Positions 1 through 50,849 of a stretch of 64,000 bases of DNA are shown piece after piece. The notes beneath the pieces are model-generated. The model was not told where the DNA came from and did not search any database. It worked only from the letters and a program-made list of their open reading frames with translations. The position numbers and the translations under genes were made by a program. The stretch's first letter is position 1. The number at the start of each line of letters is the position of its first letter. The DNA is taken from positions 5,722,001 through 5,786,000 of the forward strand of contig OX387201.1 in the NCBI GenBank assembly GCA_947561715.1, written 5' to 3'. This stretch comes from Ascidia mentula. Lineage: Eukaryota; Chordata; Ascidiacea; Phlebobranchia; Ascidiidae.

Positions 1-398
1 AACATAATTGACAGTATTGTTTTCATTGTTACAAGTGTTGGCTTTCTTGTAAAATTTATTCTTTTCAATTCATGAAGTTTACTGATACAAGTATTGAATC
101 CAAGTTTTTAAATGCAACAAATTTGGAGTTTGTAAATTTAAACACAAAAGCCAAAGCTGATATGCTTCTATACAATATTTGTAACGTTTCGAACAGGAAT
201 GCGACCATCGTCAGTGCTCTTTGAGAATGAGCTTTAACAAAGAGAGCGCTGCGGTAGACAGGCAACTAAGCAAGCAACTTAACGCAAAGTACGTCACCAA
301 GTTAAAAAACGAATTGCGTGATAGCAGGGACAAGGGTCAAAAAGGGAAAAGAAAAAGGGGCGTTATATATAAGCTCGATGGTTGCAACCTTTTTCCAG

Positions 399-2654
399 GA
401 CAGTGAAAATCTGAGAAGCGAACATAAGTGTTTTGTTCACAGCCAACTGCCATTATCGAAACATCATACACTAGACAGCCATAGTACAGTTATGAGTGGC
501 AACAGCAAGTACGAATGCAACCAACCACATGTACCGGAAATGAGAATATTCAGAAACAGGATGAAAACGTTTAGAGGTTGGCCGAACCAAATTGACCTTG
601 ATCCACACGATATAGCAGAAGCCGGATTTTTCTATCTGGGAAGCAGCGACCGGGTAAAATGCTTCTACTGCAATGGAAATTTGCATGGTTGGGCTGAAAA
701 CCACGACCCGTGGGAGGAACACGCGAAGTGGTTTCCAACGTAAGTGACCGGATGTTGTGTATGCCACCTTTAATAGATTGTCGGCAATAGAGTGTCTATA
801 GGCTTAATGTACAAATACTTTCATCTGTGAACCGAGTTGATATTTCGTTTTCACATTTTAATTTTACCAATACGTCGTGGTGGTTACCTAACGTCCATAG
901 CGGCCTATACCCATGCAAAGGTTAGCCTGGTTGAACCTCCCGTCTTTTGCGATCTTCCGGAATTTTTTTTTGCACCAGAGGGGTACTTGTCTGCGAGGAA
1001 CTCATTTTTTTTTGTCTGTGGCTACGCCAAATGCGCAAGAGGAGCGACGCAGCGCTCAATTGCTCTCGCGCTCAACCCGTTCAAACAAGGTGTATTGAAT
1101 GCGCTTCGCTCAATCGCTCCGTCCGTGTTTTTTTACGCAAAAGGAGCGACGCAGCGCTCAGTTGCTCTCGCGCTCAACCCGTTCAAACAAGGTGTATTGA
1201 ATACGCTTCGCTCAATCGCTCCGTTTGTTTTTTTTTACGCAAAAGCAGCGACGCAGCGCTCATTCGCTCTCGCGCTCAATATGTTCGAATAAGGTTTTAG
1301 TTGTGCGTCTATTTTAAGTTTGTCACATTGCATTAGATAAATGACAAACATTTGAAGATAAGTGCTTGACATAGGTTTTAAAGCAGTTTTAGGTGTAGAC
1401 AATCCACATTGCATGCAGTGTAATGCAGTCCAACACACTTTATCATTTCTTGTGTTTTTCTCCGATTCCATCGCAAACGACATGCTGTTCAAGAGAATTT
1501 CGCGAATTTTTAGATGTGTCACGAAATTATTTTCTACTGCAATAACGGCTCACCACTAAAGCCCAAAATTCCTCTCACTGGTTTCACTAAATGGGCGTCT
1601 CTTTAATAAACGAACTAAAATGATGATAAAACGTACGTACATACAATCAGTAAACACCAATAAAAAAAACCTTATACTTTTTATTCGTTTGCGACACTCA
1701 AAACAACCGCACAGCACGACGCCCATCTCATGACTACCTGGGTCATTCAGAAAGCACCTCTTTGCACCGGCCAATCAACCAATCAACGGTTTACATCAAT
1801 GGAGCGTTACGGGATGCTGCAAACATAGAAAAACGACTATAGTGTAAAACTAAAGTGCAAGAAAAGATGGAAAACAAAAGCACAGTGCGATGTGATGTGC
1901 GCATATAAGTAATAAAGAGTGATTTAAATAAACAACGCAGGTGAACAAAGAAAGCATAAAGAAAAGAATTAGTGCCGTGTGTCGTGTGTCGTGTGTCGTT
2001 TTCGCCACAGATGTTTGTTTATTTTACCACGTTTTTTTAGTCAATCAAGAATTACCAAACCTCACATGTAAACACTTTCGAATTATGTATTGGATTGGGA
2101 TGTTCCAATTCGTCTCACTTCCGGCCAATCCGATTCGCTTCCGGTCGCACATGTTGGTTTAATTCGAAGTTTTTGGTTCTTTCAGTTGTGGATACGTGAT
2201 CAGAATGAAAGGCCCAAGTTTCATAAGAAGAGTTTTGGAAAATGCTGAACACCCTAACCCCCGCCCCAGCAGACCCGTAACACAACGTGTTAATCATGGA
2301 CAGGAATCATTCCCATTGTTTAAAAGGTTAGTGTTATTCGTACAAGCAATAAGCCAATAATGATCATTTAGGTGCAGTTGTGTACGTTGTGTTGACCAAT
2401 CAGGTCTCATCCGTTTTTGACATTTATTCGTTTTTCATCTAATATCACTGCATTTATTAAGGGGCTTTGGTGCAACAAACAAAACATCACAGCAAATAAG
2501 TTCCAGATTGGACAAATTTACACCAAAACGACCCCCAAGGATGCAAATAGACTCTGGAAATGGCAACTGTGTGCTCATGCAACTCAACTTCACTGGACTT
2601 GTGCTAATTTTCTTGTTCTTCGCTGTGATTTTTATCTGTTGCAAATTTATGTAA
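399..2654 (+). CDS. BIR-domain protein with C-terminal tail anchor (no RING)
   Basis: Three exons fit in phase: about 399-739, 2186-2326 and 2462-2654. With the in-frame ATG at 492 the product is 193 residues. The upstream in-frame ATG at 378 or an exon left of the window are alternatives, because a possible acceptor ends at 398. Exon 1 encodes a BIR domain with zinc ligands spaced C-x2-C-x16-H-x6-C. The last Cys is supplied by exon 2, as in the neighbouring IAP genes. Exon 2 gives the usual post-BIR CGYVIRMKG segment and a Pro/Arg-rich linker. Exon 3 ends in LNFTGLVLIFLFFAVIFI, then five residues and a stop, which has the form of a single-pass tail anchor. There is no UBA or RING. An AATAAA lies at 2907. 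BIR domains of this type bind caspases or IAP antagonists. Membrane anchoring is inference from the hydrophobic tail. Confidence 0.72.
744..2152 (+). other. Intron of the BIR-tail-anchor gene; no other gene seen
   Basis: This stretch lies between the BIR exon (donor gtaagt at 740) and the post-BIR exon (acceptor ttcag ending at 2185). It holds the tandem hairpin repeat described separately and a short run of GTGTC-type repeats near 1975-2005. I see no convincing exon in it. Confidence 0.6.
1041..1292. repeat. Tandem repeat, about 101-103 bp unit, about 2.5 copies, hairpin-forming
   Basis: Units begin at 1041, 1142 and 1245. Each starts with GGAGCGACGCAGCGCTCA (GCAGCGA in the third copy) and the first two end with TCGCTCCGT plus a T-rich run and ACGCAAAA. 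The start and end of a unit are partly complementary (GGAGCGA versus TCGCTCC), so each unit can fold on itself. The long open frames through it come from the repeat and are not treated as genes. Confidence 0.85.
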
Positions 2655-3287
2655 TGTTATAATTGTTTGTGTCGTTAGTATTGGAAGGGCTGTATTTATA
2701 AATGTGTATTGAGTTTCAATATTGTAGTCCAACAGTCGAAACGTCTGCTCCATGAACTTCTCGACTGTTGCATTGGGTATTTTGTTTACATTTAAGATAT
2801 ACGAAACCGTCAGTTTTGTTCCTAAATGTATTGATTTCGTTTCAAACAGAAAACTTTTATGTTGAAAAGTATATACGAAAACGTTTACTGTTGATACAAG
2901 GAAAAGAATAAAGAAACAATGTAAACAAACACAGCATAACAGAACCTGAGTACCTCGAATATTTCCTAATACAATACATGTAGGTAAGAGTTAGCAACTT
3001 AACAACAAGCAGCAATTCATTGACGGTAAAACTTGACAATTTTGTCGATGTTTGTGCGACAAATAGGACAAGATCGAAGAGCAGGGGCGCAAACCGAACA
3101 ACAGCAAATATGTCCACAACCCATCAACACACAGTCACTGTTGGCGTCCAGGCAAATTTTACACATTTGCTCTTGTTTAATCTCTTCCATCAGGCGCTTC
3201 GAATCCTCACCAATCTGAGGTGAATTGACTTCATTGCCGTAAACAAGGTTTTTGCTTTCGTTAATCGCCACAAGTCCACTTTTTTCA
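2153..3287. repeat. Duplicated block, copy A
   Basis: This block matches 6346-7408 at high but not perfect identity by eye. It runs from just before the post-BIR exon acceptor, through the tail-anchor exon on the plus strand, to the RING exon on the minus strand. Copy A has 75 bp inside the tail-anchor exon that copy B lacks, an in-frame difference of 25 codons. Similarity stops abruptly inside the RING-bearing exon, at about 3287 against 7408. Confidence 0.85.
3017..3285 (-). pseudogene. Orphan IAP RING exon (duplicate of the 7136-7826 exon)
   Basis: The reverse strand encodes the C-terminal IAP RING with CKICLDANSDCVLMGCGH and the end FYRQ-stop, almost identical to the RING of the complete gene at 7136-8574. 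Its 5' part is cut off at the duplication edge. Reading upstream from the conserved frame, a stop appears before any good acceptor. The minus-strand poly(A) signal kept by copy B (TTTATT on the plus strand at 7003) reads TTTACT here at 2884. It is probably a leftover, although it sits downstream of and on the same strand as the BIR-UBA gene at 4254-5774 and could be tested as an alternative 3' exon. Confidence 0.65.
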
Positions 3288-3289
3288 AG

Positions 3290-4253
3290 TGGTCAAGTTC
3301 TGTTGTCTGCTTTTCCGAAAAGCAAAAAATTGTAATTTAACGATCTTTACCCATGCGCCCACCGCAGTGAGCAGTAATGAACACTGTCTCGATAAAACCT
3401 GTAAAGTTTGTCTTGATAAAATCTGGTAAATTTTTTGCGTTCCCATGCCATGTGGTTACGTGTGCTGTTGCGTGAAATATGCCTCCGCTTTGGGTCAGTG
3501 TCCCATCTTTCGAGCTCGCATGGAAAGCATCTCCATAGAAAGTTTTATAGTTAGTGAAAAATTAACTTTCAGCGACATTAAGCTCGAGAAAGTTCATGCA
3601 AATAAAGTTTTTTAAACAAACAGTGCATCAGCAAAAACTGAAAGTTATAGACTGCTAGGCCTATATACGCCGTATTAAAGGAATTTACATTTAAATCATT
3701 TAAAAGTGATTAGAAAAGTTTGAGTGATTTGCACAAAGGCAAACCAAGAAATGTGACCGCGTGTAGCATTGTTGTTTAATATTGCGCATGGACAAAATAA
3801 CTTTTCACTTGTTGCGCATACACTTTTATGATTTCCATGTATGTGTTGGCCGTAATCATTATGAGGCTTCACAGTCTAGCAGGATCAGCTCCTTTTCCGT
3901 ATATTTGTTTTCATTGTATCTGTATGGTCCTGCTTCTTGGAAACGCTACATGTTTCTCTTGAAGTAAACTTCTGCTAGTTTGTAACGGTTATCTAAACTG
4001 GGCAACGCATTTGCAATTACACATGTTTGATGAAAAAAAGTCTGATTTGATTTCTGTTTTTGCATGTTTTTATTTTATTTTACTAATCAACGTACATGTC
4101 GAAACAATTAATTTTCATACTATGTAATGCAAGTAAGCGGACTAATGGGTGCAGTAGGATACAGCAGCAACACAGTGGAATTTAGGCATCTGTACTCAGG
4201 CACATGACGTCGGTGTATTGCACATCTCAGCATGTGTTCTAGTTTTTGATCGT
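3290..4253. other. Intergenic stretch, nothing recognised
   Basis: The sequence is AT-rich with only short open frames lacking family resemblance. It separates the orphan RING exon from the 3' end of the BIR-UBA-tail-anchor gene. Confidence 0.5.
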
Positions 4254-5774
4254 TTACCATAACCCGCCTTGATTCCAAGCAATGCCAAGCAGAAACAAAC
4301 AAATAAGAGAACAGAAAAGTCCAGTTTCATTGAGTTGTAACTGCATATTAAAGCTGTTTTCAGTGTTTGGGCGCCTAATTCGTTTTGGTCGCTTGGGGCG
4401 CCTTTGCACAGCTAGTGGGGCGCCGGTGTTTCTCGGGGTGTTGTCTGGACGACTTGTACTAGTTTCATTGACACTTATACGGACTGTCTTGTAATCAAGG
4501 AGATCCACCACAAGCATTTCAAGAGATGTGTAAAATTGTCCACTTTCTCGAAATTTTCTAAACAAAGCAATTTATGTTAAATGGTATGGCATGAGCCCAG
4601 CATCATCAGAGAGGTCGCCAAGGCTGGCTGCAGTAGCATTTACTTCTGTACTTTGTTTATGAGGGGGCTTGATTGCATTGCATTTATTTCACCACAGTGG
4701 TATTGGTAATATACACTTGTATTAAACACACTGTTTCAGATGTACTTAATTGTAAACTTCAGTTTTTGACGCACAAGCCATTTTGTTGAATACGAAATGG
4801 ACGCTAGCAATTGAACAAAACAATAAAATAGCTTCCTTACTTTTCCACGAAGCCTTGACTGTTGGCTTTCATTTGTTGCAAACAAAGTCAGTGTAAACTT
4901 ACCTTTGTGTTACATTGGAAATTAATGACTCTTCGAATCCCATGTTCCTAGCTTGAACCTCAATCCTATGAGAGAGTTCTTCCAATTCTTCTGTTATGTC
5001 GGATTGTGGAGGTGTTGATTATGTAGGTAGTGCTACAGGAATGGTATTCCTCTGGTCATTCAAGGCTTGGTGGCGTCTTCGAATTCTTGCTACGAATTTG
5101 GGACCTTTATTTTTCAAAAGGTATCCACATCTGTAAAAAACATTTCGGCTTTTATTTGAGTTTTGAAAGTATTTATTATTTTGCTATACTGATGGCAAAG
5201 GTACATTTTTATTCCAGCTCATTCCTGGTAGTGTCTACTGTTTATGATCTTGCGTAAAATCATACATCAGATAATTCCAACTTGGTGACACAATGTAGAA
5301 ATAAAATTTGAAAAGCTAATCTGGAAGTCGAGACAGGAGGCGTATACTCAACGAATGATATGGAAGTAAGCTTATGACCCAACAATATCAAAACGACACA
5401 CCAATACTAATTACATTTAAAGGCCTCCTATATGTGACTGATTGATCTGTACCATCTTTGCCATATAAATGAACGTTAATACCATATACCCAATAAGATT
5501 ACATAACTAAAGCAATATTAATGTACGTAGGATGGTTCTTTGCGTGCTGTTCCCACGGATCATCGTCATGTTCCCAACTATGCTTCCAGTTGCAATAGAA
5601 GCAGTGAGCTTCACTATTGCTTCCGAGGTAGTAAAACCCGGCACTTGCCAGCTGACGGGGAGTGGTGACCCTGATTCCGTTCGGCCAATTTCTGAAAGTT
5701 TTGATTCTTTCCCTGAAATTTCTCATTTCTCGAATTCGAGGTTCGTTTACCTCGTACATCGTTTTTAAATTGTC
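4254..5774 (-). CDS. BIR-UBA protein with C-terminal tail anchor; in-frame stop in exon 2
   Basis: Three exons match in phase: 5774-5527, 5130-4903 and 4557-4254. The first visible Met is at 5759. Exon 1 carries a BIR with CFYC and WEQHAKNHPT, and exon 2 supplies the final Cys (TCGYLLKNKG). Exons 2 and 3 carry a UBA-like domain as in XIAP (MGFEESLISNV, then FYTSLEMLVVDLLDY). Exon 3 ends with a basic stretch (RRPKRPKRIRRP) and LNETGLFCSLICLFLLGIAW before the stop, a probable tail anchor in place of RING. Oddities: a TAA in frame at 5021-5019 separates the post-BIR part from the UBA, and the position matching XIAP Trp323 is Asn. Either this is a decaying gene or allele, or my exon 2 borders hide a small intron. 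Confidence 0.6.
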
Positions 5775-6345: not shown

Positions 6346-7408
6346 TGGTTTAATTGGAAGTTTTTGGTTCTTTCAGTTGTGGATACGTGATCAGAATGAA
6401 AGGCCCAGGTTTCATAAGAACAGTTTTGGAAAATGCTGAACACCCTAACCTCCGCCCAAGCAGGCCTGTAACACAACATGTCAACCATGGACAGGAATCA
6501 TTCCCATTGTTTAAAAGGTTAGTGTTGATCGTACAAGCAATGAGCCAATAATGATCAGTTGGGTGCAGTTCTGTACGTTGTGTTGCCCTATCAGATCTCA
6601 TCCGTTTTTGACATGTGTACGTTTATTCGTTTTTCATCTAATATCACTACATTTATTAAGGGGCTTAGGTGCAGACTCTGGAAATGGAAACTGTGTGCTC
6701 ATGCAACTCAACTCTACTGGACTTGTACTAATTTTCTTGTTCTTTGCTGTGATTTTTATCTGTTACAAATTTATGTAATGTTATGCTTTAGTGTAATTGG
6801 AACGGCTGAAGTTCTAAAAGTGTATTGAGTTGCTATATTTTAGGGCAACAACCTAAACATCTTTATCATGAACTTCTCGACTATTGCATTGGGTATTTTG
6901 TTTGTATTGAAGATTTACAAAACCGTCTAATATGTTCCTTAGTGTATTGAGTTCGTTTTAAGCAGAAAACTATTGTGTTGAAAAGTAATATATACGGAAA
7001 CGTTTATTGTTGATACAAAGAAAAAAGTATAAAAACATTGTAAATAAACACAACATAAAAGAACCTGAGTACCTCGAATATTTCCTAATACAATACATGT
7101 AGGTAAGAGTTTGCAACTTAACAACAAGCAACAATTCATTGACGATAAAACTTGACAATTTTGTCGATCTTTGTGCGACAAATAGGACAAGATCGAAGAG
7201 CAGGGGCGCAAACCGAACAACAGCAAATATGCCCACAACCCATCAACACACAGTCGCTGTTGGCGTCCAGGCAAATTTTACACATTTGCTCTTGTTTAAT
7301 CTCTTCCACCTGACGCTTCGAATCCTCACCAATCTGAGGTGAATTGGCTTCATTGCCGTAAACAAGGTTTTTGCTTTCGTTAATCGCCACAAGTCCACTT
7401 TTTTGTGA
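6346..7408. repeat. Duplicated block, copy B
   Basis: Counterpart of 2153-3287. The plus strand holds the post-BIR and tail-anchor exons, and the minus strand holds the RING end of the complete IAP gene. The plus-strand AATAAA of copy A (2907) is not conserved here (AAGTATAAAA), while the minus-strand signal is intact at 7003-7008. Confidence 0.85.
6377..6778 (+). pseudogene. Orphan post-BIR and tail-anchor exons (copy B)
   Basis: Exon-like pieces lie at 6377-6517 (CGYVIRMKGPGF through SFPLFKR, ttcag acceptor and gttagt donor) and 6661-6778 (ending LNSTGLVLIFLFFAVIFICYKFM-stop). Both stay open and their phases agree, so the coding sequence looks kept. However, no BIR exon precedes them on the plus strand within the block or its left flank. 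They are probably a partial duplicate. An alternative is that they serve as distant 3' exons of the plus-strand gene starting near 399. Confidence 0.6.
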
Positions 7409-8574
7409 CGTCTCGTCGAAATCTTGCGTGGGATTTTCGAAAGGATCTTGATCCATTTCCTCGTTGGAGGTTTGAGCTTCCGTGAACGCCTGGATCGCAC
7501 TCACTAATTCCATAAGTGACGAATATTCTGAACCGTCCGATTCAAGTTTAAATCGCACCACAGCTTTTACTGCCGATTCTTCGAATCCAAAACAAAAAGA
7601 TTCTTTTACAATTTCCGTTTGCAATGCTCTTGACAGTAGAGTTTGTTGTGATTCTGCTTCATTGCTACAAACAGTTTGTACCCTTGCTTGCTTCGCCACA
7701 GCCTGTAAGGTATCGCATGAGGTTCGTGATTGTTTTGGAGCGTCGAAAGGGCGCTTGATGTCGGGGTATTGGCTTGCGACGGAAGTGACGTATTCCATTC
7801 CTTTCGATTTAAGCACGAATTCGCAACTGTGAAAAAGGCACGAATACATTAAAACCTTATAAAAGTGAAATGTGTTTCAAATGTAAGTTTAGATTTGTTC
7901 TTAAAGTATTGGAATTAGGGTGAAATGAATACTAAAGTACTTACTGGGGATACCACTTCGCGTGTTCGAACCAAGGGTCATCGTTGTGTGACCAATGCTG
8001 CAACCCTCCATTGCAGTAAAAACACTTCACTCTGTCACTTTCTCCCAGGTAAAAAAAACCGGCTTCTGCGATATGTTTAGGACTTGCTTTGATGTGGTTT
8101 GGCCAGTTACGGAGAAACGTCATAATCCTTGGCTGGAATTTTGTCATGTGAGCACTACACGGTTGACTGCACTCGAACAAAGTCCTAAAAAAAGATGGCA
8201 TGTTTAAGAACAATAAGGAAAGCGCATCTAGAAGTTTTAGTCAGGGCGTTTACGACGTTTTTACTATAGAGTGAAATATTACAACAAGTTTCTTTAACAT
8301 TACTTACTGGTTTTGTAATTGGGAGGAGTGTCCACAGGGATTTTGAATGTTCTGACTGTTCTGTTTTCTGCCAAACAAAAGCAAATAAATATGTTACTTG
8401 GTTATATAAGTGGCACAAATCCATGTATAGAATATGTTGTTTTGTAGCAACTACAGTTTACAGTTGATAAACTGTTTATATTCATGTTAAATACACTTAC
8501 CTTGTTAGGTGGTGTCTTGTTTCAAAGTTGCTTGATGCGAAATGAACTGCTTGTATGCTTTGATGCGGCGACAT
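7136..8574 (-). CDS. IAP protein: BIR-UBA-RING E3 ligase
   Basis: Four exons close in phase: 8574-8501, 8367-8308, 8184-7945 and 7826-7136, giving 354 residues from ATG 8574. Residues about 60-135 form one BIR (GFFYLGESDRVKCFYC, C-x2-C-x16-H-x6-C, last Cys from exon 4). The middle has a UBA-like segment (FGFEESAVKAV, then YSSLMELVSAIQAF), and the C-terminus has a RING (CKICLD, CGHICCCSVC, CPICR) ending FYRQ. IAPs of this layout bind caspases or antagonist peptides through the BIR and ubiquitinate targets through the RING. The BIR keeps the acidic residue before DPW and the Trp of the peptide groove. The tail lies in duplicated block copy B. A minus-strand AATAAA lies at 7003-7008. Confidence 0.9.
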
Positions 8575-12233: not shown

Positions 12234-13375
12234 AGACCGTATTTATCGTTGCACATTTGGTTTAGGTCTTTTGCAGAGGTTCCTCTCTCGAATGGTGCAA
12301 TACTTGTTGACATCTAGGGAAAGTCCCTGGTATTCTCACAAAATATTCTACGGCATCAATCAATAGGTATTAAAGGAAAGATTATCCAATATGTCGTGTT
12401 TTGGCTTGGTCAACCAAGTCGTGACATAAAAGTCATTTTTACAAAAATTGGGCAAAAACACCGTTTGTCCCAGCAATAAAAACTCTCTAGCACCAAAAGT
12501 GCAACCCAATAAAGCCACTACCTTTTGTAAATTAACCAACCAAAACACACAAGAAAGTAACAAAAAATGTTAAAATATCGACATAAACTTGTATATTTTG
12601 AAATACATTGAGTAAATATCTGGTGGGTAATGTTGGATGAAGCTTGTCTTACGTCACAATCGCGTGCTCGTCAATGCATGACGTTATGAAAAAAACCTTG
12701 TGTGATTACTGGTCACTTCACATTGTTGTCTGGTTACTTTTTATGCGCGTGGTTTTGTGTATCAGTGAAACAGCCTCGATTTTTGTACAATAAGTGTTAA
12801 CCATGCATAAGATTAAGCTTTCAATTATTATGTAAAATAAAACTGGATGATTTTAACTTGTTTCAGACTCAGTTGTGTTTTTATCACTTCATGTTTGTTT
12901 CTGCGTAGTGCCATGTTATGTCCTTGGCTATCTGGTATTGGCAGTCGTGTGCGTATACGATTTTTTTGTACTGTTTTTTGCCCTTGTCTATCTGGTATTT
13001 TTTACTAGAGCACTTATTTATGGAATACCTACCATTAAAATTTTATACAATCCATAATTTAGTAATGATGATGTTCAGCACAACTTTCAAACCTATTTTT
13101 GCTTGTGATGTAACATCTCTTTTTTAACTACTTTTCCGAAAATTTACTGTTAATCCCCCCCAATCAAAACGTGCAAAAAACAAACTTTCTAATCTGGCAA
13201 GCACACAAATTATTTAATGTGATTAGTTTTTACAATAAGCGATATAAGCCATCGTATTTAAAATCAACCTAATTATCTTTAAATTTAATAATAAGTATTT
13301 TTAGGTTTTCCAAACAAAATTTGTAGGCATTTTAAATCCGCTGCAGTTACATTAAAGCTTTTAAGCACTCAGGAC
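12234..13375. other. Intergenic region between IAP and sorting nexin genes
   Basis: This is a divergent spacer holding the upstream flanks of both genes. The short open frames, some hydrophobic near 12900-13100, lack start context and family similarity. No promoter motif is clear enough to call. Confidence 0.45.
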
Positions 13376-16300
13376 ATGACTGAGCAAGCAAGTGTGCTGT
13401 ACAACTTTGATGGACTAACTGAGAATGGGGAGATATCACTTGTGGAAGGTGAAACTATAAAAATCCTAAATAAAAACATTGGAGATGGATGGTGGGAGGG
13501 TGAAGCAAGTGGTGGAAGAGTAGGCCTCTTTCCAGAGGCCTATGTCCAACTCATTGTTGTTCCTGTGCCCGATGATGTAAGTTACCTGCTTTACATTGCA
13601 CTTAAACATTTTATAGTATCTGGGATAGTTGTGAAAACAGTTTCATCCTTATTTCCCAAAGCTGCAAGCCTTGTGCTTAGGCATTACTAAATAGTAAATA
13701 TGAAGAGATGGACTCAAAAAGTTTATTGTGTGCAAATACTCCAGAGAACAAAATTTATACATATTTACATTGTTGAGAACATCAACAAAGTGAGACTTTT
13801 TGAAATTACTAAAAATTTTATTCAGCATTGCCAGAAAACTTTTTATAAATGTGCCAGTGTGTATGACTGGTTGTAACAAATTCAGGTTATATTTATAAAA
13901 AAAATTATTTACTATGTATATATATGTACTTGTTTCTTTTGTACTATTATAACTTTTTACCATGCCACAAACCCACACTTTCCATCATGTAGAATTAATA
14001 TTGACATACAATTATCCCAAAGCTGCCAGCATTTTGTTTGACTTGACTATCTGTGTATAAAAATAACACTGCATTTAATGACATAGCTGTCACATGACAA
14101 TGGGATATGCTTGTCATAGTTTGATTAATTGTCCATCTACCTGGTCCTTCCATGACTTGAATTGTGTCCCGCGACGGAAACCGGTACTGCTTTGCACTGA
14201 TGACTGTCCAAAATAGTGCTGTTTAATTGCTTCCTGCAAAATGTGATTTGTCACCACGCAGTACGCACATGATAAATAGGTTTACGTCATAAAAACTTGA
14301 ACTGTTGCTATTTTATGACTTCGTTTTTGATGTGAAAATCTTTGACAGTTATGTTTACATAATCATATTTAAATGTAGGAACTCTTCGTCCTCGACATTC
14401 ACTTTTTAGTCAACAAAGCCTTTCAGTCATTTAGATAAATGTTTCATTTTCTATACATTTTGGTACAATTCTTCTGACAAGAAATTGCGAACTTAACTGT
14501 TAGATTTACCTTTATTTTCAGAATGCATTAAACACACCCCGTTACGCTGATGTGCCTCCAGAGGTCTTTGATCAACAACAGAGTTACAACCAGTCCGGAC
14601 AACGTAGCCCAGCAGCAAACAATGTTAACTATCCCACCAACTACAATAACACACAGAACAACTACAATGATGATGATGCATGGTCAGAAGACTGGGACGA
14701 TTCCTCCACTGTTGCTACTACTGTTGTACCGGTATGTTGCTTCCAGTCGAAAAAAAAAACAATATTGCCTAATATACAATTGTCAGACATGATTTGGCTG
14801 AATGTCCCTGGTCATATTGTATTTGAACCACAAAAGGTTTTCACATTACATAAGCTGGACTAAGTATAGAGGCAAATGGTGTTGGGGGCACTAATAAACA
14901 TGATTGTTTCATTTAGATGCATGCTGGTGCAGCAAGGCAATATGGTAATGAGGCACAGGATGTATCTTCGATCAACTCAGTTGAAAGTAGATCCTCCAAG
15001 GTGTCGGGCTCGGTTAGCAAGAACTTCAACAGGTTTTCTTCCTTTGTAAAACATGGTGGTGAAAGTTATATGTTGGGCAAAGCTGATGCAAGGGTACGAC
15101 AAGTCGACCAGGTAACTTTGTTACTTTGCTTGACGAAAGATTAGGCTTGTCGATTGTATTTTTATTCCTTAGTCATGAATTCTCAAGCAACTAATTAGAA
15201 TAATGTAAAATTTATTGTTGCATTTTTTGTTTAGTTTTAAGCTGTTGATTAGTAAACTAGGGTTTAAACAGTATATAGTTTATGTTGTTATTGCCAGTTC
15301 ATATTGCATGCAAAGTATACACTTTTAATTCTACCTCATTCAGGTTCGAATCGAAGTGGATGGTGAAGGCCCCAAGTGGCAGTATAGTGAACACATATTC
15401 ACCTGTACCATTGGTCAACCTAAGCAACAAAGTAAAATGAAAGGTAAAAGATGGTGACAGAGACAAATCACAAACTCCAGCGATATTAGTGACGTCATTA
15501 AGCATGCAGGCACTTTCAAAACTCTGTGTTTTGTTGATTAGTGCCTCTTACCAAAGTAAACAAATGAGTTTCAAGCTATAACTATTAAGTAGTGTCATCA
15601 CAGCACAAATGTCACTTGGAACTATATCTGTACAACTGTACAAAAGGGATATTTCCCAAATTTATGTTTTGTAATAATCTACGAACAATGACTAGTTTGG
15701 TACACATAATAAATTTTGTTAACAGGTTTGAAGAAATTTGTGTGTTATAACTTGACACCGAGTGACACAGCTGTCACTGTTGAAAGAAGATACAAACACT
15801 TTGACTGGTTGTACGACCGCTTAGTGCAAAGATATCCAATGGTTGCTGTACCAAGACTACCTGATAAACAGGCCTCAGGCAGATTTGAAGAGGATTTCAT
15901 TGAAGGCAGAATGGCAAGACTAAAGTTATGGGTGGGTGACATCAATTACTTGTTTAAACTTATCACAAAGACAAAAAAATGGAACAAAATTGTGTTATTA
16001 GTGTGGTATGTTGTGCAGGACATCCTATTGTCAATGTGTGTGGGCACAACTCCTTCTCCGAAATTGCATGACTGTTGTTATGTGCAGCAGTTTTACCTTG
16101 CACTCCTACACAGCTGAATAAAAGTTATGCACCCACAGCTTTATACAAATTTACATTGCACTCTTTTGCAGTTAATAAATCATTACATAAATCAAAAACT
16201 GCCTAAAAACATTTCTGTCACAAAATAAAAAAAGGTTCAGAATTAAAAAAAAAATTATGTACATGTTACATGTAAGTATAAACCTGCTTAGATTGGCCCT

Positions 16301-47800: not shown

Positions 47801-50800
47801 TCATCCACATGTCTGCACGCTTTAAATCATTTGGTGGCACAAATCATGCAACAACTCATTTTGTGGTGTAGGTTTGCTGCAACAGCATGCAGTGATTTTA
47901 ATTACGAAACACTTTCTTTTGCAGTGGAAATATGAATACTGTGATGTCAGCTTCCTGCGCTTGTTTGAATCTTTTCTGGAGTCAGCCCCTCAACTGGTTC
48001 TGCAGATCTATATTATGGTCACTACAAGGCAAACACCATTTATTACAGGTTGGTCACCAATTTGTGACATGTTAGTTACCAATTAAACGATATTGCATTA
48101 CATGCCCGATACTGATAGCGGTGTGTTAATGTTCGTTGTTAAGCTAATGATTATGTTTTACCAAACTTATGCACCAAAATTTGAAGTTTAGTTGTTGTCA
48201 TGTATGTTTGGAATCACAACTTTGGTTATGATTTATTTTATCCATGTAAACACCAACCCAATTGAAAAATGGTACTTGTTTTGTTAAACAATTTTTTGTT
48301 TGTCTGAAGCTTACACAATTTTTTGTCTTTGAAAAACCTTTAAAACAATTCCTATTCCTGAAAACAAAGGTTGTTTAATGAAGGGCTTCTTAGTCCATAC
48401 AAATTTCATAACATTCCTGGAACCTTTTCTGGCTGATATTAAGACATAGCATGTTTTGGAAAACCTGTTCATATTTCTTTATACTGCTTCTGTTTCACAG
48501 TAATGTCATGCCTTGGCTCGTGGGGGGGATTGTCGATGGCTTTTTTGAGTTTTCAGCGTGCCCTGAGAAACTCACGAAAAGACAAAAAGCAAATTTCCAT
48601 TGTTGGCAGCATTTTTCTTGTTCTCTACAGATCTTGTACTATTTTGTCTAGGGTAAGTGAAAAATAAAGTGCTAAATAAGTTTTATAAAGATACCATGTT
48701 AGTTTGGTTGTCCTGGTGCTTGTTTATGGCTACATCTTGATGTGAAACTTTGATTTCTTCTGCAGGTTTTTGCACTAGCTCTCCTGCTAAATGTCCATAT
48801 TTGGGCATGGCTGGGTCTTTTTATTGTCCACTGGGGCCTAATGACCGGTTGGATCATTCTACAGGGAACCAACTTTTGTCAGTCAAAAGTGAAAGAAATT
48901 GTTTATGACATAGTAATTGGGTAAGTGTTTAATTTCCTGCATAAAATGAACCCGGTTTGGTGACCAATGACCTTTATAACTACACCCTTATTTTTGCTAA
49001 TTTCAAATTCAGTTGCTGATTAGTAATGCTGTTAATTTATTACAATGTTAAAACTGGTAAGGACACTATTCAAGATTTAATGTGTGGTTTGTTCCAATAA
49101 TAGCTGTCTTTTAATCATGGATTTTCACAGTGTTTGCTAGTAAACAGGATTTATTCTCCTATAGCCTGTCTTTGATTTGAAAACATGTGAATAACTAAAT
49201 CAATATTTTTACTACCTTTGTATTAACTAACACTTTTAAGTACATTTCAAAACTGATGTTTTATGATACTAGACCTTTAAGGCTTTGTAGTAACGCACCA
49301 GAAACACTCATAACTGCTAATTCCAGTGTTATATTGCTTTTTCAGGTTTTGCTACAACTTTGCATACCTCAATGTGACTGGCAAACGAAGCAACAAGTAC
49401 CGCATGACAGTTTTCTACATCGTAATGTTGATAGAAAACTGTGTGTGTGCTGGTATTTGGATGAAATATCGTCATGGTGGTGGAAGTTTAATTGACGCCC
49501 TTATGGGAAGCAGTCTGGTAAAATATGGAGAAGAATTCTTGACCCAAGATGTAGCTCTGACAATTGTTGTCCTTATTCCTTCAAGTTTTATTCTTGGTAT
49601 ACTTTTCATGTTGCTTTACTATACGTTTTTCCATCCTACTACCGGTGACTTGCCTTGCTGCAAAGAGGGCCAAGAAACAACCAAAGAGGAGAGCGAAGTT
49701 GAAACGGCTCCAAACAATTCTTGCGTGGAAATGCGGACCCACAGCGTTCGCACTTACCGGAAAAGCGAAACATTCCGCTCCTGGCCGAGCGGAAGTGTTA
49801 ACCTGGATGAGACCTCGGGCCAAGCAAGGCCAGCGCGTCCAAAATCTGAAGTGATCGAAAGTAGCGCTTCCTCTTTATTCGACGAACCGAAGCCAGCGCA
49901 AACTGTGGCAACGACGCAACCCGTGGAGGTAAATTCATCTTACAGTTCCTGTTACTCGCTTAGACATGACGATGTGACGACCTTCAATCGTGGCACAACA
50001 GGACAGGCCATTGTTGCTTATTCCACACAAATACGCGACTCTGGTGAGACGACAGTTTATCCACAAAAAGGGGTGGTCACACACACACAGGAAAACGAAG
50101 TAAAGCGTTTGAAAGTCGAACTTCTTATCCAGGAGAAAAAGAGACAAAAGCGAGAGCTTGAAAAAACGCTCATGCAACTAAGTTTGAAACCACACTCGTC
50201 ACCGCAAGCCACTAAGTCTCCACAATCCCCCACTGAGGAATTGTTTAACAGAAAAGAAAGAGCGAAACTGTTGGCAGTCACAGAACCGTCGTCGTCTTAT
50301 TCGAGACCTTCGAGTCGTCAATCGCTGCTATCGTCACCTGTAGCCGTGCCTATGTCTGATCGGCCAATGTCTTCAGTGACGGAAAGACCTGTCAAGAAAC
50401 CACTGCCGCCATCGCCTCTCACGCACAGCAGCAATGAAACAAAGCTCAGTTTCACAAACCAGCCTTCTGCCTGTCATTCCTCTCCCAGCTCAAGAACTTT
50501 AGCTTTTCACCGAAAGCGTTTAAACAGCGAAGAAACAAATTTACAATCAACCAGTATGTTTAATATGGGCGCTATGCCAGCGAAGTGTGGAACTTTTCCA
50601 AGGTGCTCCAGACGTCAAGACCTCAGTACGCCGAGCCGATCCGCGCAGAGCAGTACATTGAAGACCATTCGTGAAAACAAATTAACCATGCATTCCTCTG
50701 GCGGCAGTCGAGATTATAGCGCGTCTTTGTCAAACATAGCAATCAAACAACAACTAGGGGGTAGTTTAAAAAAGACCAAGGTACCTCGTGCTATGAGCTT

Positions 50801-50849
50801 TACTGTTTCCAAAAATGAGCAAGTAATATCCATAGAAAGTACGCTATGA
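44823..50849 (+). CDS. XKR4/6/7-like: XK-related membrane protein with long cytoplasmic tail
   Basis: Twelve coding exons close in phase: 44823-45127, 45400-45458, 45527-45601, 45672-45736, 45838-45928, 46417-46562, 46956-47098, 47515-47602, 47925-48048, 48501-48652, 48766-48920 and 49346-50849. The product is 968 residues. Residues about 1-165 are a polar N-terminal region. Several membrane segments follow (VDIFFASVSVGFYIFDIVTD, FWLTAVLIVVPSII, FLIAQMHIFQIAPLFRYL) with the family motif ESAPQLVLQIYIM and later DVALTIVVLIPSSFILGIL. The last about 400 residues are a Ser/Pro-rich cytoplasmic tail with a charged helix (ENEVKRLKVELLIQEKKRQK). XKR proteins include plasma-membrane lipid scramblases, but members differ and activity cannot be assumed. 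Intron 2 has a GC donor. Confidence 0.9.

Follow-up and report, generated by a model that had tools for sequence, protein, structure and literature searches.

IAPs are usually viewed as soluble inhibitors or ligases. BRUCE/BIRC6, a giant ubiquitin-conjugating protein with a single BIR, associates with membranes, and we know of no terminal anchor in it. In bivalves, IAPs have undergone tandem expansion with both gain and loss of domains, and BIR proteins without a RING occur, as described in the available sections of the report (PMC7831173). The transmembrane segments named in the legends of a study on the tunicate Botryllus schlosseri belong, in the text at hand, to Bax and AIF1 (PMC4889877). 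A C-terminal tail anchor is described, in the accessible part of a further report, for Drosophila Hid, an apoptosis regulator that gathers its partners on the membrane (PMC12803136). A search of the open-access literature, covering mostly titles and the beginnings of abstracts, returned no BIR protein that ends in a membrane segment.

We analyzed a stretch of 64,000 nucleotides from Ascidia mentula (C69:5722001-5786000, hereafter the window) and searched the 196 Mb genome for relatives of its genes. The COX1 gene of this genome, on contig C79, contains 18 AGA/AGG codons within its open frame. Translated as glycine under the ascidian mitochondrial code, they agree with sites such as GGFGNW and GAGTGW, where other COX1 proteins have glycine, and so mark the organism as a tunicate. 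The reading that we consider fairly probable is that the locus belongs to a tandem family of tail-anchored IAP-type proteins, which would have originated by loss of the RING, insert into a membrane via the tail, and act as scaffolds or decoys without ligase function.

Structure of the window gene and its predicted anchor

The spliced conceptual translation of three plus-strand exons (Table 1) gives a product of 193 residues, composed of a single BIR, a linker, and a strongly hydrophobic segment followed by four residues and the stop. The protein begins with MSGNSKY in exon 1 and terminates with ...VLMQLNFTGLVLIFLFFAVIFICCKFM-stop in exon 3. The joins 739/2186 and 2326/2462 lie exactly where the initial annotation had placed them; both introns have GT..AG borders, and the exon phases match. 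The fourth zinc ligand of the C-C-H-C BIR set comes from exon 2, and the Pfam BIR score of 84.3 bits, which identifies the product as an IAP/BIR family member, is reached after joining this exon. Pfam detected no UBA in the plus-strand gene of the window and no RING in the spliced products of this and the two further lineages described below, none of which thereby qualifies as an XIAP/cIAP-type E3. Intron 1 houses a 102-base tandem repeat of 2.4 copies (window 1034-1279).

Table 1. Features of the BIR-tail gene and its neighbors, in window coordinates.
Feature	Position	Strand	Basis
TATA-like element of the BIR-tail gene	364..373	+	TATATA ahead of ATG in 6/6 complete copies
Exon 1, likely start codon and BIR as far as the fourth zinc ligand	492..739	+	Pfam BIR; six complete cluster copies
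Exon 2, final BIR cysteine and linker	2186..2326	+	Splice sites kept in 10/10 copies; pN/pS 0.47
Exon 3, basic linker, hydrophobic segment and stop	2462..2654	+	At least ten copies, open, plus strand; pN/pS 0.28
Predicted transmembrane tail anchor LNFTGLVLIFLFFAVIFIC	2583..2639	+	Octanol-scale sum -15.1, four residues after
Poly-A signal AATAAA	2907..2912	+	AATAAA or ATTAAA after the stop in 10/10 copies
Orphan RING exon, convergent to the tail exon	3017..3292	-	Map
Second lineage: BIR 5759-5527, exon 2 (first part of UBA) 5130-4903, exon 3 4557-4254	4254..5759	-	Intact twin; UBA profile
Orphan exons 2 (6377-6517) and 3 (6661-6778), same family	6377..6778	+	No upstream BIR exon of this type found
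BIR-UBA-RING gene, convergent neighbor, RING-bearing sister group	7136..8183	-	Pfam BIR and RING; map

The anchor was judged by hydropathy only, using 19-residue windows on the Wimley-White octanol scale. The C-terminal sums range from -8.9 to -15.1 across all three lineages. The best window lying wholly upstream of the tail window reaches +1.59 in the window gene, and the third type has a single weak upstream window (-1.14). In one protein taken from each lineage, no window in the first 60 residues falls below 0, for which reason a GPI signal or a secreted protein was ruled out. Tail-anchored proteins are recognized by a single hydrophobic segment no more than about 30 residues from the C-terminus and by the lack of a signal peptide, a sequence pattern that the family shows. 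The window gene (copy g6 of the family described below) and copy g4 also have an in-frame ATG 114 bases upstream of the assumed start, at window position 378. The residues that it would add are not hydrophobic (best window +3.79 in g6), and it sits 8 bases past TATATA, ahead of the transcription start expected from the TATA-to-start distance rule.

Among the 803 window ORFs of at least 40 residues, three end with a sum of -12.9 or lower and at most eight residues after it, two of which are the plus-strand tail exon and its copy at 6661-6778. Relaxing the cut-off to -8 within the last 45 residues lets 87 of the 803 ORFs pass, so that little can be concluded from hydropathy by itself. This applies most of all to the second lineage, whose two intact genes have tails of -8.9 and -10.4, not more hydrophobic than about one in ten ORF ends of the window. 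In each of the three lineages, the long forms have a basic stretch upstream of the hydrophobic segment, which before an anchor is a mark of a cytosolic N-terminus; five of the ten copies on the plus strand lack this stretch.

Copies of the tail exon and two further lineages

A genome-wide search with the tail protein at E up to 10, in which ten candidates were scored, gave at least ten matches, and all tail exons among the matches listed are open and lie on the plus strand at C69:5.691-5.729 Mb. Ten copies were mapped, comprising six complete BIR-to-tail genes (g1-g6), two copies with the second half of the BIR only, and two pairs of exons 2 and 3 without a BIR. The half BIRs (C69:5707612-5707757 and 5718278-5718423) stand behind an unrelated open stretch (ELDGFDSSCVTV...), which is perhaps a new exon or a product of decay. 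All ten copies retain the intron 1 acceptor as well as the donor and acceptor of intron 2, and the first donor is intact in each of the eight copies having it. Exon 3 is shorter by 75 bases in five of the ten, in frame and with the basic linker missing. TATATA precedes the ATG by 126–128 bases in five of the six complete genes and by 95 in g2, where the rest of the upstream region differs from that of the other complete copies. The hexamer AATAAA or ATTAAA follows the stop of every copy by 129–277 nt, which is weak evidence by itself in A+T-rich DNA.

The initial annotation had listed three related tails in the window. Relatives do exist, but two of the three sit in defective copies. The segment 6661-6778 belongs to the orphan pair, ahead of which no BIR exon of this type was found. 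The tail at 4254-4557 belongs to a minus-strand gene of the second lineage with an in-frame stop in exon 2, although this gene has an intact twin at C69:5698480-5699985. The LN-x-TGL start is common to the three window tails, but other relatives read LNFSGL, LNGNGL, or FNCYGS. With the three tails as queries, nothing better than E 0.7 was found outside the cluster among the matches listed, and an NCBIfam search returned nothing. Four BIR loci elsewhere, scanned by pattern, revealed no convincing tail. This is a weak control because one locus (L043) is an element-type BIR, another (L041) has a hydrophobic ORF close to an exon-2-like piece, and the four make up only a small fraction of the 132 BIR matches in the genome.

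Two further lineages combine a BIR, a UBA, and a hydrophobic end. The second type is complete at C69:5680480-5681936 and C69:5698480-5699985, with exon 3 carrying the remainder of the UBA together with the hydrophobic end, and the third type is complete at C69:5685340-5686467, its sole gene. Their BIRs score 71 and 78.6 bits, respectively, with Pfam. A second-lineage BIR exon in two frames, followed by exon 2, was also observed at C69:5671213-5671959, with no tail match downstream. A profile of the UBA region, built from four rows (two second-type, one third-type, and one from the RING-type gene), matches XIAP (2kna, 3.1e-8) and cIAP1 (3t6p, 5.2e-6) and nothing more up to E 1, and Pfam UBA_BIRC2-3 stays below its cut-off with E 0.008 and 0.0097. 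Among the tail-bearing genes, an XIAP/cIAP-type UBA is thus recognized in the second and third lineages only. When the tail alignments were compared with 2000 shuffles that preserve segment composition, 6 were as good for the window and second lineages, 28 for the window and third, and none for the second and third, the last score coming largely from the UBA part. These genes thus run on into a hydrophobic end at the point where XIAP-like genes proceed to the RING.

RING-type neighbors and the IBM pocket

A convergent RING-bearing gene or remnant stands opposite many of the tail genes, and the window gene faces the orphan RING exon. Nearby RING pieces lie on the opposite strand or, on the plus strand, are broken by a stop. 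Same-strand splicing of the window gene to a RING was rejected, the plus-strand RING-like piece at 3391-3531 being interrupted by such a stop; this piece looks like the convergent neighbor of the inverted second-lineage gene. Farther along the window, SH3 and PX domain exons adjoin the cluster (13295-16114, perhaps a sorting-nexin gene), and an ORF for an XK-related protein lies at 49314-50846. Some XK-related scramblases are caspase targets.

For the BIR tree, 36 BIR stretches were taken from the cluster and eight other loci. Eight shorter than 55 residues, including the two half BIRs, were dropped, leaving 11 RING-type, 10 tail-bearing, and 7 from elsewhere. "RING-type" denotes a BIR that is followed by a RING exon or its remnant, and at least 4 of the 11 have downstream stops, frame breaks, or a degenerate RING. 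One branch separates the 10 tail-bearing BIRs from the 11 RING-type BIRs (support 83/87, 82% of 200 bootstrap trees), a moderate support that is raised by near-copies. Near-identical BIR ORFs are also dispersed on several contigs (L001-L008 on C69, C71, C2, and C70, and further places). In seven of these eight loci as read (all but L004), the ORF beside the BIR resembles what we take to be a DNA-packaging ATPase, as in polinton-/adintovirus-like elements.

The positions L307, W310, acidic 314, and W323 (XIAP numbers), which we take to form the IBM pocket of type II BIRs, were checked on the alignment to cIAP1 BIR3. All four are kept in 11 of 11 RING-type BIRs versus 3 of 10 tail-bearing BIRs (g1, g2, and g5). 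The window gene has His and the third type Lys at 314, g3 has Arg at 323, and the second type has lost positions 307 and 323. Judged from these residues, caspase or IBM binding may have been lost in tail-bearing BIRs, and a pocket kept in only three of ten argues against simple caspase inhibition for most members. Together with the tandem expansion, this contrast with the RING-type BIRs would suit anchored BIRs that no longer bind caspases or IBM proteins and serve as platforms for immune adaptors in the manner of type I BIRs. Such platforms are a form of the tail-anchored scaffold and not exclusive of it; given the intact pocket of three copies, we regard them as conceivable, if rather doubtful.

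Constraint on the tail, origin, and comparison with known systems

The ratio pN/pS was derived from pairwise-summed Nei-Gojobori counts, in which the pairs are not independent. It amounts to 0.38 over the six complete genes and 0.34 for their exon 1; over the ten copies it is 0.47 in exon 2, 0.28 in exon 3, and 0.19 in the last 34 residues of exon 3. Counted by site, 9 of 14 variants in these 34 codons are synonymous against 24% expected (p 0.0015), or 8 of 14 (p 0.0075) with one two-step codon taken as a replacement. By this measure, the tail evolves as a protein under purifying selection. The divergence among copies is 9% in intron 2, 12% in the 3' flank, and 29% in the last 150 bases of intron 1, and part of the likeness therefore reflects recent ancestry or conversion. 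Gene conversion between tandem copies could keep the tails alike, but neither it nor recent ancestry explains the bias to silent change. The lone intact pair of the second lineage gives 0.52, a weak sign, and the third lineage consists of one gene only.

These values bear on the view that the genes are decaying duplicates, producing no stable protein with both BIR and tail, and that the tails are alike through recent duplication. The cluster is indeed rich in broken pieces, such as the two half-BIR copies, the two orphan exon pairs, the second-lineage gene with a stop, RING exons that are orphaned or degenerate, and RING-type genes disrupted by stops or broken frames. However, each of the six complete copies has an uninterrupted reading frame and intact sites, replacement differences amount to 6% versus 17% for silent ones, and the sole change to Ser within GLVLIFLFFAVIFI sits in an orphan copy; we consider decay an improbable account of the family. 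Hydrophobic protein ends can also serve as degrons. Real proteins might accordingly carry a degradation signal, or the buried helix of a short BIR-only inhibitor, at their hydrophobic end, and RING-less BIR proteins are known from the hard clam, in the portion of the study available (PMC7831173). We find this unlikely in view of the sums of -8.9 to -15.1 with which the proteins of each lineage end and the basic stretch of the long forms, even though half of the plus-strand copies do without the latter.

The initial annotation had proposed a BIR protein with a membrane anchor in place of the RING. The gene structure and complete layouts, the tail exons conserved in at least ten copies and apparently under purifying selection, and the single tree group apart from the RING-type BIRs all support this proposal, as do the two additional lineages, which keep an XIAP/cIAP-type UBA and have a hydrophobic end at the place of the RING; membrane insertion is what these sequences predict. 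The simplest account is that a tail anchor replaced the RING once, in an XIAP-like gene, and that diversification followed. On this account, the RING exon of an XIAP-like BIR-UBA-RING gene would have disappeared and a hydrophobic exon would have been acquired at the end. The resulting protein, without a hydrophobic N-terminus, would be inserted post-translationally via its tail, leaving the BIR on the cytosolic side. A very hydrophobic tail with a weakly charged end favors the ER over the mitochondrion, and because both features are seen here, the ER would be the likelier target membrane. As a scaffold or decoy without ligase function, the protein might retain BIR ligands (caspases, IBM proteins, or signaling adaptors) at the membrane, and the UBA-bearing lineages might retain ubiquitin-tagged complexes as well. 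The anchored proteins would thereby limit or localize the soluble BIR-RING paralogs. Only tentatively do we extend this to a full scenario, in which a single replacement of the RING by a tail anchor gave rise to nine predicted complete genes in three lineages that have largely left the pocket behind and form platforms opposing or steering their BIR-RING neighbors.

If true, a natural family that fixes the BIR to a membrane and dispenses with the ligase would represent a new means of placing the control of cell death or immunity on an organelle. It would occur in the sister group of vertebrates, at a locus where anchored relatives adjoin RING-bearing ones. The proteins resemble XIAP and cIAP1/2 (BIRC4 and BIRC2/3) in the BIR, which matches solved structures, and, in two lineages, in the UBA. 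They differ from them in having a single BIR and a C-terminal hydrophobic segment instead of the RING. The single BIR and the predicted membrane association recall BRUCE/BIRC6, which is unlike them in its giant size and ubiquitin-conjugating function. Tandem expansion, gain and loss of domains, and BIRs without a RING are shared with RING-less bivalve IAPs, but that report, in the sections available, classifies architectures by BIR and RING copies, and the word "transmembrane" does not occur in its main text (PMC7831173). BsIAP7 of Botryllus schlosseri is likewise a tunicate BIR protein, but combines the BIR with a RING, according to the available text (PMC4889877). Hid, as presented in the accessible part of its report, is an IAP antagonist with an anchor (PMC12803136), whereas here the predicted anchor is on the BIR protein itself.
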